Origin: Daphnia pulex
Taxonomy: Eukaryota > Arthropoda > Branchiopoda > Diplostraca > Daphniidae
Assembly: GCF_021134715.1 (NCBI RefSeq)
Contig: NC_060023.1
Location: forward strand, 496,001-560,000
Reading direction: 5' to 3'
Length of the DNA stretch: 64,000 nucleotides
Made by a program: the position numbers and the translations under genes. Position 1 is the first letter of the stretch, and each line of letters opens with the position of its first letter. Below are positions 885 to 63,171 of the stretch, piece by piece. The notes beneath the pieces were generated by a model. That model was not told the origin of the DNA. It ran no database searches and was given only the letters and a program-made list of their open reading frames with translations.

Positions 885-2626
885 TTAATTGGTGTTGCAT
901 CCGGGGACGTTGGAAGGCCAATCGCAGGCGTTGATACTCGGCCGGTAAACCAATCCGTTAGAGCACGTCTATCAATCAATCAATCAGATTTAATGCAAAT
1001 TAAATATGTTCCACTTTTATTATTTCGTAAAAAAAAATCTATGAATAATTCAATCTATTTAGTCTTTCGAGGTTAAATGTATAGACTCACGAAGGTGTGG
1101 TAATTGTATTGGGAGCACATGAAGAAATTCGGCGAGCAACTAGCCGTCGGGTAATTTCCAGACGATTTGCCCAGGCAACTGAATTCGCCCATTTCGTGCA
1201 ACGGCATCACGTCATGGGTTTTCGTCGGCCAACTGATGGTCGTTTTCAACGCTGTTGATTTCGTCGTGTAAGTCTCAGGTAATAACGTCGGGAATTGCCT
1301 CATCCGATTCTTCCTCATTTTATTGGTAGTGGCGGGAGATTTGAAATCGGCCAATTTGCTGGGCGGAACCACGCCCGAATGGTCGCGGATAAAATCCAGT
1401 TGACTGCGGACGCGGGTCAGAAGGTTCGGCCTTTTATTATCGTTCATCCGCTTGTTGGTTTTCATCCTGCAGCTTCCGGAATTGGCTCTTCCGGCCACTC
1501 CGACGACGAACCACCTGTCCAATTTCGGGTTGTAATAATTCAACGGCCCACCATCGTCGCCCTGTTTTAAATTAATACAATTTTGCAAACATTTTAAGAT
1601 TACTATTCATTTTGATTAAATACAAAAATTACGTAACAGAAGCGACGATTGTGAGATCCATCGGTGCAGATGACACTGTCGCCGGAGAAGGGCCCAACTC
1701 CGGCCAACTTTTGGCAATGGCCGTCGCTCCCGAACGAGGAGATGACGGTCGTGTTGACTCGACGCAAAACGGGACTGGATTCCCTTAGGCAACACTGGTG
1801 AGCTGATGACGCAATTAATACGAAAATTTATTTTGATTGATTTAATTATAATTCTAGTACTTCCGGTTGATTGGCCCCATCCGGTGAAGACGACGGAATC
1901 GTTGACTTGATCGGGATCGTGAGCGAACGGCAGACAGGCCGGCTGGACGTAATCTAATCCAATTAAATTCGTGAGTGAATTCATTTCAATTTAAATCAAT
2001 TAAAATTAATTTTACCGTTAAGAATGGCGGGTTTCGATAGTAAAATGACGGCAATGTCGTGTTCCAGTAGGTTGGCGGTAATTTCCGGGACGGCCAGAAC
2101 TTTCCAGTTGTGGATTTGGTGATGGGCGCGGTCGCTGCTGCCGGGACTGACGTCACGGGAGCCCAGGGTGATGTTGATGAGGCTGAAAAGTCTGTCGGTG
2201 CCGTCCTCGACGATGCAATGGGCGGCCGTGAGGATGTGCTGGTCGCTGATTAGCGTCCCACCGCAGGTGAAATATTTCCCGCTGGGATTTTGAACGAGGA
2301 GGTGAGCCACCCACGGGAACTCGTTGAACAGCAAATTCGGCCGTCCGCATTGAACCGGAGCTGTTGTAAATATAAATATTAACAGAAATCAATTGGAAAT
2401 GTCAGTTTTCAAGTGAATAATTTGTGTAATTAATTAATTAATTGATTAATTAATAATTGTGTAATAATAAACAGAAATCCATTTAAAATAGAAGAAGATC
2501 AAATCAATTAGTTAAATTACCTTTTTGATGAGTTTCACCTGCCAGGGATAATAACAGTATAATAACATAAAATAAAGGAAGAATGGCAAACACGCTGGCC
2601 GAGTTATTACTATTGGCAATGGCCAT
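885..2626 (-). CDS. Secreted serine protease homologue (Ser to Asp) with C-terminal CBM14
   Basis: Six exons: 2626-2521, 2360-2016, 1953-1861, 1802-1633, 1561-1091, 968-885 (422 aa), all GT-AG and phase-consistent. The protein has a signal peptide (about residues 1-25), an S1A fold (about 36-290), a Thr/Lys-rich linker and a six-cysteine CBM14 (about 365-421). His (H83 in LTAAHC) and Asp (D137 in HDIAV) of the triad are present, but the nucleophile motif reads GDDGGP, so Asp241 sits where Ser195 should be. Hydrolysis is therefore not expected, and binding through the fold and chitin is more likely. Between CGRP and NEFPW the usual R-I(V/A)GG activation site is missing: paralogues have about 15 residues here and this copy has none. 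A 58-bp intron interrupts the exon after GWGQ, where the paralogues have none. The start was chosen for the hydrophobic leader. It could still be a decaying copy, but the frame is intact throughout. Confidence 0.8.
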
Positions 2627-3100
2627 TTTGAAACAATCGTACAATAACGGCCGGTTATTAGGCACTTGTTGCGACTGATGGCCAGGATCGTCGTTGACTG
2701 TGCTATGCTGATGTCGTTCAGATTCCAACTGGTGACCCAAATGGACTTTTCTATACAGTGTTTCATTTCCTATTTTCTGAGCGTCGTGAGATGTGTGATG
2801 TGTTAGGCAATTTAATTATGCGCTAATATAATAACCTTGGTGAAAAAGTTGCCTTTTCTTCTGGAATTCGATTGCACAATACATTGGCGTATATAGTTCA
2901 TGATTGAATTGAATTAAAAAGCTACTGATGCACCTTCTACGGAGCTACACGATCAATTGTCGAGTAAGAATTCATGCTGGATGCAGTAATACGTAATGGA
3001 CTACTTTATTGGAATTGATAGGAACTGATTAATACATTCTTAACTTGCAGCCAAGAAAATCGACAATCGAGTGGAAAATTAAATCAAAATCGGATATTTC
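2627..3100. other. Intergenic between two pseudoprotease genes
   Basis: This must hold the promoter of the gene starting at 2626 and the 3' flank of the next one. A minus-strand TATATA lies near 2891, about 265 bp upstream of the ATG, so either the 5' UTR is long or this is not the promoter. From about 3040 the sequence matches the 3' flanks at about 7083 and 10978 (cttg..gtagccaagac type), which marks the left edge of the tandem duplication. Confidence 0.4.
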
Positions 3101-61277: not shown

Positions 61278-61666
61278 CCTATAGACCCTATAACATTAAT
61301 AGAATGTCCATTAATAATGTCATTGCCAATTTTTAAAATCTATTCACCGCCACCAGCATAAAACGTGCCGCGATATTGTTTCCCCATTTTTCAGAAATGT
61401 CCACCGCCAATTGAGTGGACAATCAAATTTCATTACCTGCATTATTCACCAGACTGGCAATTTAAAATCATATCAATCATTATTGAAGACATATAAAGAC
61501 TTTCCCTTTTCATTGAGCAATCCCATCAGCACAAGTTTAACCTTGTAGACTCAAGGATATCCTGTAGTTATAATCATAGCATAAAAATAAATTCTAAATT
61601 CAAAGATGGTCTTATTTTAATCGATTTTTATTCGTGATAGACGTTTGTATAATACAATTGTGAATT
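61278..61666. other. Intergenic, nothing recognised
   Basis: Short gap between the PAN gene promoter and the protease stop. Confidence 0.35.
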
Positions 61667-63171
61667 TTAAGTTAGAATAGAAGTTAAATCTAATGCTGAT
61701 AAGAGAGCCAGCCACAGCATGGTAGTGACGGCCGGCTGCTTCATCTGGACGGCCGTGTTACTCATCTGGGCCGTCGTGTTCTGGATCCAAGTGGCGAACG
61801 AACTGACCCGCGTGAATCCGTTGGGGTAACCCTTTTCGCAGCCCAAATTGGAGCCGAACGAAACGATCCCGATCTGTTTCCAACTGCCGTCGGCCATTTC
61901 CAAATGCATCGGACCGCCGCTGTCGCCCTGATTATGACAAATTAATTTTGTTTCAGTCAAAGATTCAATTGATTAGATTATTTAAAATGATACGTTGCAG
62001 GTGCCGTGGTGATTGGTCGTGCTGGTGCACATCATGTCGTCGGTGATGAGGCTATCGTACTGCTCGTAACACTCCTGGTTCGTGATCACCTCGGCGGACG
62101 TTTTGCGAAGGACTGAACTCGTGCCGCCACCTTCTGCATTTAAATGAATTGTAATTCTAAGTTTAATTATGAATTAATTTGAATCATTTGTTTTACCGTC
62201 ACTGTATAGACCCCATCCGGTGAGAACGACAGTTTCACCCACGTAATCGTTGAGGGACTCGGACGGGCTGTCCAAACAAATCGGCCGGACGTAATCTAAA
62301 ATGTTTATTACAATTATAATTATTGCACAATCAAGATTATAATTAATATACCTGAAAAGTCGATGGATTGCGGAAGCCGGATGAGACCAATGTCACCTTG
62401 AAGAGTGTTGGAGTCCCAATCAGGATGGATGTAGTAATCGCGGCTCCTGTAATTTTCCTGGTGGATTTCTTGGTCGTCGTCGACATTGTGGGCCCCCAAA
62501 GTGACGTGAACGATAGCGACACTTGGACATTGAACATATGTTACGTCATTAATTATTCGAATTAAATCAAAAAGAATTTGAAGTTACTTTTCTAGACAGT
62601 GGGCGGCGGTTAGGATCCACCTGTCGCTGATCAAACTGCCGCCACAAGAGAAGAGTTGATGATTGGCTTTTTCCAGGACGAGAAACACCTGCCACGGGAA
62701 CTCGTTGGGGGCCGTCTCCACTCCGCCGACGATCCTCATCCAGGAATTGTCATCCGGCGGATTGCCCACACCACAAACTCTGTCGACATCTGTCAAACAA
62801 TTTTAGAACGATAAACACACAAACATAAAATTAGATTAATTATTATTTAATTAATTTTTATTTGATTAATTGTTATTTGATTAATTATTATTTGATTAAT
62901 TGTTATTTGATTAATTATTATTTTATTAATCGAAATTACCGTCAATGAATCCGATGCGGATGTCTCTTCTCAATCTGGAAGGTGGTCGAATTCCGTTGTG
63001 CGGATTAAGATTCCGCCTTGGCCAATTGTTCGGGTTTCTGATCAACGCCGAAATCAATTTGGAATTGTGTTTGACTACTACGGGCTGGATGCAATCGGCC
63101 GGATGGAATAAGAACAGAGTCAGCACAATTCCGAACAGAATCCAGCAGACGAATTTTCCAACACGTTCCAT
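61667..63171 (-). CDS. Secreted brachyurin-like serine protease, triad intact, hydrophobic C-terminal tail
   Basis: Six exons: 63171-62940, 62789-62588, 62521-62352, 62295-62197, 62133-61994, 61927-61667 (367 aa). It has a signal peptide (about 1-27), an Arg/Asn-rich propeptide to about 96 and an R96-IVGG activation site. The triad is H141 (LTAAHC), D188 (QGDIGL) and S284 (GDSGGP). The S1-pocket base (position 189) is Gly278 in GTCNGDSGG and the later loop reads [19 protein letters not shown], as in crustacean brachyurin/chymotrypsin-type enzymes. It is not a classical trypsin, and specificity is probably chymotrypsin- or collagenase-like. The end ([19 protein letters not shown]) is a hydrophobic tail that may direct GPI anchoring. 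This is the only member in the window expected to be catalytically active. Its body shares features with the dead genes at 3101, 7159 and 53988. Confidence 0.85.
62830..62934. repeat. AT-rich tandem repeat in intron 1
   Basis: Repeats of gattaattgttattt/gattaattattattt, about 16 bp each, inside the first intron of the protease gene. Confidence 0.8.

Follow-up and report, generated by a model that had tools for sequence, protein, structure and literature searches.

Serine protease homologues in a Daphnia pulex gene array include members of a clade with aspartate at position 195 and a chitin-binding tail

We analyzed a 64,000-nucleotide stretch of the Daphnia pulex genome (C7:496001-560000, on contig NC_060023.1 of assembly GCF_021134715.1, referred to here as the window), which carries an array of seven genes with the fold of S1 serine proteases, all on the minus strand. 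The genome comprises 133.19 Mb in 13 contigs. Serine protease homologues (SPHs) are an established class that is abundant in arthropods, and it is rarely clear which of them serve a function or why residues of the catalytic triad outlast catalysis. The full triad His57/Asp102/Ser195 is found in only one of the seven window genes. The other six have an S1 domain with at least one triad residue replaced and are SPHs by this sequence-based criterion. Three of the six have Asp at position 195, and we found that these belong to a larger clade in which Asp195 goes with the rest of the triad and with a CBM14 tail.

By sequence and by intron positions, the window genes split into two subfamilies, which we call X (g2, g3, g6, and g7) and Y (g1, g4, and g5). 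All three Y genes are pseudoproteases that carry GDDGGP and end in a CBM14 tail: g1 (885..2626; high coordinate of the motif, 1561) and g4 (11054..12520; motif at 11610) have H/D/D at positions 57/102/195, and g5 (19612..21081; motif at 20188) has R/D/D. Three of the X genes are also pseudoproteases. g2 (3101..5053; S/N/L; GDLGGP at 3730) has a Thr-rich linker and a CBM14 tail, g3 (7159..9106; N/D/F; GDFGGP at 7844) has a CBM14 tail, and g6 (53988..55627; F/E/N; GDNGGP at 54473) has a Thr-rich stalk and a hydrophobic C-terminus resembling that of glycosylphosphatidylinositol (GPI)-anchored proteins. The fourth, g7 (61667..63171; GDSGGP at 61927), is the gene with the intact triad H/D/S, and its C-terminus is likewise hydrophobic and GPI-like. 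These two C-termini were judged by eye, as was a hydrophobic N-terminus in g1, g4, and g5.

The Pfam Trypsin profile (PF00089) matched g1, g2, g4, g6, and g7 with 108 to 203 bits against a cut-off of 20.6 (E values from 5.9e-31 to 5.2e-60). At such scores, chance resemblance to the S1 fold is not an issue. g3 and g5 were assigned to the fold by alignment with these five. CBM_14 (PF01607) was above its cut-off in g1, g2, and g4, and tblastn found matching exons in g3 and g5. No clip family was detected at an E value of 0.001 in the five scanned proteins, the queries being complete from the start codon for g6 and g7 and without the N-terminal exons for g1, g2, and g4. The closest solved relatives of g4 by sequence were pancreatic elastase and chymotrypsinogen C (E values of 7.5e-30 and 9.4e-30). 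These share the S1A sequence family with the Asp195 genes, but the aligned elastase keeps GDSGG, whereas the Asp195 genes differ at Ser195 and at pocket residues.

Spliced models were built with our own small protein-to-genome aligner using GT/AG introns; for a single intron outside the window, GC-AG boundaries were placed manually. In-frame stops were absent from all 23 models of the protease domain (7 for window genes and 16 for genes elsewhere), a result that is partly by construction because the aligner penalizes stops, although the exons were also read independently as long open frames. An earlier note on this DNA, made from the letters alone, had described open frames and the absence of Ser195 from six of seven protease-fold genes, and both descriptions hold: motif coordinates and spliced alignment agree on Asp, Leu, Phe, Asp, Asp, and Asn at position 195. 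The alignment also bears out its account of the other positions. His57 is replaced in four genes (by Ser, Asn, Arg, and Phe) and Asp102 in two (by Asn and Glu), a basic-IxGG cleavage site is present in five of the six dead genes, and most fold cysteines are kept. The gene without the cleavage site is g1, whose start codon was taken from the open-frame reading. The cysteine exceptions are Cys42 and Cys58 in g3 and Cys191 and Cys220 in g4, so that in the alignment whole disulphide pairs have gone. As modelled, g2 and g3 contain a GDL/GDF repeat insertion between Cys191 and Gly193.

Genome-wide, the DNA pattern for GDDGGP gave 16 matches, compared with 5 in a reversed control. Eleven of the 16 lie in protease-like exons, which belong to ten Y genes and one distant S1 gene, and the other five look unlike proteases in their context. 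Subfamily Y forms one clade (support 100/98, or 100/99 with an extra distant gene added) of at least 15 genes: g1, g4, and g5; those at C7:191, 193, 197, 200, 211, and 493 kb; those at C10:10.383 and 14.870 Mb; and four at C7:8.292-8.297 Mb. With 150 of 218 candidates scored in the search, the true number may be higher. The protease domain of these genes is spread over three to five exons (as modelled), so intron number varies within Y. The gene at 493 kb (C7:492-495 kb), just beyond the window, is the next one of the array and likewise has GDDGGP. Another four X genes, at C7:337-345 kb, bring X to eight genes, intact and dead members together. By eye, all four of these additional genes have GPI-like C-termini, giving six of eight X genes with such tails. 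One of them, at C7:337632-338624, has Arg at position 57 and retains Asp102 and Ser195.

Not one of the 15 Y genes keeps Ser195. Ten have Asp, and the remaining five differ from one another (Arg, Val, Ala, Thr, and Asn). On the tree, the five non-Asp genes make up one subclade beside g1, g4, and g5 (support 91/82), and the Asp195 character requires two changes, which we took as one gain and one loss. Since the non-Asp genes form a single subclade in this position, Asp195 would be ancestral in Y and lost once. Thus, Asp195 was probably fixed once, in the Y ancestor. A single fixation had been proposed in the earlier note for an ancestor of the three window genes with GDDGGP; the single event agrees with the tree, but that ancestor was drawn too narrowly, as the one reconstructed here gave rise to 15 genes on two contigs.

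We counted triad residues in an alignment of the 23 genes plus 4 outgroups. The Asp195 Y genes keep His57 in nine of ten cases (g5 has Arg, which is also basic) and Asp102 in all ten, whereas the non-Asp Y genes keep His57 in one of five and Asp102 in one of five. When all X and Y genes with a replacement of Ser195 other than Asp are taken together (n = 10), His57 is found in one and Asp102 in four. A CBM14-type tail follows the protease domain in all ten Asp195 Y genes (nine by tblastn, three of these through the first half only, and the C7:191 kb gene by eye), in line with the association of GDDGG with CBM14 noted earlier from the window genes. For the five non-Asp Y genes, a search of the retrieved flanking DNA gave no CBM14 match at an E value of 0.05. 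The basic-IxGG site is present in nine of the ten Asp195 genes, g1 again being the exception. Their substrate pocket is also altered: the column of residue 189 holds Arg in eight of ten and Asn or His in the other two, and positions 214 to 216, SFG in intact genes, read, for example, GRG or WMG.

The distant S1 gene (C7:11490366-11491512) has GDDGGP in its last exon, at C7:11491369. Upstream exons contain LTAAHC and TDDIAIVKL, and His57 and Asp102 are therefore kept here as well. Inspection by eye of 380 bases downstream revealed no CBM14. This gene was placed outside Y on a long branch, and a tree in which it was forced among the Asp195 genes was rejected marginally (p 0.049). A separate, second origin of Asp195 is tentatively favored.

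To describe selection, we used omega from a codon model in IQ-TREE and pairwise dN/dS by the NG86 method with codon bootstrap. Omega was 0.240 for the ten Asp195 genes, 0.280 for the five other Y genes, 0.358 for seven X genes (g7 excluded; this set includes one intact gene, at C7:342 kb), and 0.093 for four intact genes. The C10 genes, the one close pair with Asp195, gave a dN/dS of 0.10 (0.02-0.23) from 23 differences, and their exons and introns differ to a similar extent (23/723 and 9/218 sites; p 0.52). Other pairs covered a wide range: 0.25 (0.16-0.37) for the intact pair L002/L003, 0.50 (0.33-0.76) for the pair 8295/8296, 1.05 (0.68-1.75) for g2/g3, where dS is as high as dN, and 0.17-0.22 for deeper pairs, in which dS exceeds 1.3. 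The GDDGG genes thus look maintained under purifying selection, whereas between g2 and g3 no constraint on the protease domains can be measured. The proposal in the earlier note that the array reflects selection rather than decay is therefore supported for the GDDGG genes and not for g2/g3. A dN/dS near 1 was one half of what that note had named as evidence against it; the GDDGG clade stays well below this value and g2/g3 sit at it.

Taking these results together, we think it moderately probable that the Asp195 genes form a maintained, non-proteolytic, chitin-tethered clade in which Asp195 is held against His57, and that they stand beside less constrained SPHs, two of which have a swapped-in CBM14. 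Once Ser195 has been lost, catalysis no longer explains why His57 or Asp102 should remain. Both are retained where Asp195 is present and changed where it has been lost, which points to an interaction between Asp195 and His57. In such a scheme, the Y ancestor would have lost catalysis once, through the replacement of Ser195 by Asp, and ten descendants would have retained Asp195, Asp102, mostly His57, and CBM14. Judging by how the active site of S1 proteases is arranged, a salt bridge between Asp195 and His57 would close the oxyanion hole and keep the site rigid. The proteins would be secreted and mostly cleaved in the manner of zymogens, CBM14 would hold the dead S1 domain on chitin in the peritrophic matrix or cuticle, and the domain would work without hydrolysis, by binding a partner or as a scaffold.

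Several observations weigh against this reading. g4 is without the 191-220 disulphide and g1 without the cleavage site, so not all members need work in this way. Omega of the Asp195 genes is 2.6 times that of the intact genes, indicating weaker constraint, and the high dS of the deeper pairs means that substitutions are saturated beyond the closest pairs. The association of Asp195 with the rest of the triad has a Fisher p of 0.001, a value that overstates independence because the ten Asp195 Y genes come from a single clade. A count along branches within Y does favor the association, since positions 57 and 102 changed once in 4.1 branch-length units among Asp195 genes and at least five times in 1.9 units among the others (p 0.014), but this is a post hoc test that depends on six events, with changes counted by hand and branch lengths copied from the tree. 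The non-Asp subclade that defines the loss of Asp195 has the support of 91/82 given above. Placement of the distant gene at C7:11.49 Mb as sister to Y was not rejected (p 0.186), which leaves the second origin insecure. Finally, 46 of 233 alignment columns are invariant in the Asp195 clade, so that an invariant Asp102 is by itself unremarkable.

This last point bears on a founder effect, in which His57 and Asp102 stay in the Asp195 genes for structural reasons that have nothing to do with Asp195. Ten of the eleven cases do come from the one clade with its many invariant columns, and Asp102 is usually retained in SPHs, with 13 substitutions among the 125 SPHs of the beetle Tenebrio molitor (PMC11172050). 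His57 behaves differently: it is found in 42 of those 125 (PMC11172050; the set includes 24 SPHs with Ser195 kept) and in one of ten non-Asp genes here. Moreover, the sister subclade altered both positions over shorter branches, and the distant gene at C7:11.49 Mb shows the same pattern as the clade. We regard a founder effect as possible but doubtful. Similarly tentative is a stronger form of the interaction between Asp195 and His57, in which the change from Ser195 to Asp would create a stable new site of Asp195, His57, and Asp102, either an ionic lock or a site for a metal or ligand. This site may have been preserved as a unit with the chitin anchor across a clade without an intact member; the distant gene would have it without an anchor, and where Asp195 was lost, the anchor and the other triad residues would have been lost with it.

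Neutral decay would make the dead copies pseudogenes in the making, with the replacements due to drift after catalysis was lost. Copies do die in this array, as two short remnants between genes indicate. One, on the minus strand at 47419-47529, is a protease-domain end of 37 amino acids (aa) of the GDDGG type; spliced searching of its surroundings with three queries yielded no other convincing exon. The second, also on the minus strand at about 51338-51390, is a stretch of 17 aa (GGTLISDTHVLTTTHCV) that matches a g5-like gene around His57 (E 6.6e-4), and the two may come from the same dead gene. The g2/g3 dN/dS, the lost disulphide pair of g3, and the insertion in the 191-195 loop also fit decay. 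As an account of the dead copies, decay is nevertheless unlikely: open frames and splice sites are present in all 23 models (partly by construction, as above), omega stays well below 1 in both Y sets and in the X set, the C10 pair has a dN/dS of 0.10, and cysteines are lost pairwise. A single explanation for all six dead genes was rejected, given that dN/dS differs by branch and that remnants of decayed copies are present.

The g2/g3 pair diverges in patches. In the 3' half, there are 66 differences in the 565 sites of exons 3 to 6 and 6 in the 255 sites of the three intervening introns (p 3e-6, for a stretch picked after the data were seen). In the 5' half, the two introns have 23 differences in 121 sites and 24 in 93, exon 2 has 25 in 155, and exon 1 has 4 in 190. 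In the CBM14 part, the exon has no differences in 105 sites and the intron 9 in 60. The pair also has exon indels. Excess divergence of exons over introns, together with exon indels, would be expected if the protease exons were diversifying in a manner like the exon-segment switching known from snake venom proteins (ASSET; PMC2711939). We consider this improbable. The 5' introns exceed the exons, the intron of the CBM14 part has diverged while its exon has not, and dS is no lower than dN. Patchy gene conversion fits equally and is the simplest account of the divergence as read from these sequences. Positive selection in g2/g3 was rejected because dS is as high as dN and the whole gene has no exon excess of differences.

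Exchange is also suggested by the tails. By protease domain, g2 and g3 are X genes, yet they end in a Y-type CBM14 tail. The last exons of g3 and g4 are almost the same, and five consecutive blocks of 50 bases between 11153 and 10910 are 96 to 100% alike (240/244 sites). This near-identity extends into the 3' flank, falling to 74 to 84% in longer pieces further out, and the last protease exons of the two genes are only 39 to 51% alike in three blocks. Most simply, a GPI-like tail of g2/g3 would have been swapped for a Y-type CBM14 through recombination in the array, with a later exchange between g3 and g4.

Protease inhibitors, for example from cyanobacteria, occur in Daphnia food, and a dead site with a CBM14 tail could suit a decoy that binds such inhibitors at the peritrophic matrix, but the rebuilt pocket (the residues at 189 and 214 to 216) should fit trypsin and chymotrypsin inhibitors badly, which argues against a trypsin-like ligand, rules out an inhibitor decoy as the leading explanation, and makes it very improbable in any form.

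Known SPHs provide partial parallels. SPHs account for 125 of the 269 S1 sequences of Tenebrio, and their residue 195 is G, T, N, L, V, or I and, more rarely, A, M, D, E, K, R, Y, or F (PMC11172050). The variety of replacements, which the earlier note had singled out as unusual, is therefore not so, as the beetle shows more kinds. Asp195 itself is rare there, in between 1 and 4 of the 125, and one SPH with Ser replaced by Thr was reported to be weakly active (PMC11172050). The non-clip SPHs of that survey resemble the Daphnia genes in their S1A fold, their signal peptides in most cases, their many replacements at 195, and their large families; what sets the present genes apart is Asp195 across a clade, with His57 and Asp102 and a C-terminal CBM14. 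Among honey bee SPHs, GDGG is found in 5 of 13 (PMC1761132). Clip-domain SPHs such as cSPH35 and cSPH242, cofactors in prophenoloxidase activation (PMC10540698), offer a working analogy for a dead S1 domain that acts as a cofactor, but the five proteins scanned here, g6 and g7 from the start codon, gave no clip match at an E value of 0.001 and have a chitin-binding or GPI-like tail instead. Chitin-binding modules also occur in the mosaic serine proteases Tequila and Scrasp1, of which D. pulex relatives have been described (PMC2685406). Unlike those SRCR mosaics, the genes here combine a dead S1 domain with one CBM14 at the C-terminus.

In a PDB search with a trypsin stretch bearing Asp195, the five alignments inspected, from the best 60 of 160 matches, were to ordinary trypsins with GDSGG; a solved S195D protein may exist among the others. 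We found no paper on GDDGG SPHs in literature that covers few subscription journals, nor one that joins SPHs, Daphnia, and chitin binding; among the matches listed, the Daphnia pseudoprotease work concerns iRhom. A ten-gene clade with one fixed replacement, the His/Asp pair, and a chitin anchor, next to a sister subclade that lacks these, amounts to a natural experiment on why triad residues persist, and it is open to mutagenesis and structure determination.

The window also holds other open frames. On the minus strand, a single frame of 623 aa at 48753-50621 has an X-like signal peptide, a long Thr/Pro repeat stalk, and a GPI-like tail with no protease domain, and it looks like an SPH minus its protease part. 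Mucin-like Thr/Pro frames with PTDA and TTTTTP repeats (13395-14330 and 16156-17352, minus strand) have the same GPI-like C-terminus. Three further minus-strand frames (56286-58910, 60408-60989, and 63799-63999) have similar ends. A cysteine-rich module that looks like PAN/apple is common to the first two, and one frame has a very long Pro/Thr/His repeat. On the plus strand, the window contains a Tyr/Thr repeat frame with units of the YYTTKAPEYYT type (31151-31999) and an open frame of 952 aa (40193-43048) with coiled-coil repeats and, by eye, a C2-like end.

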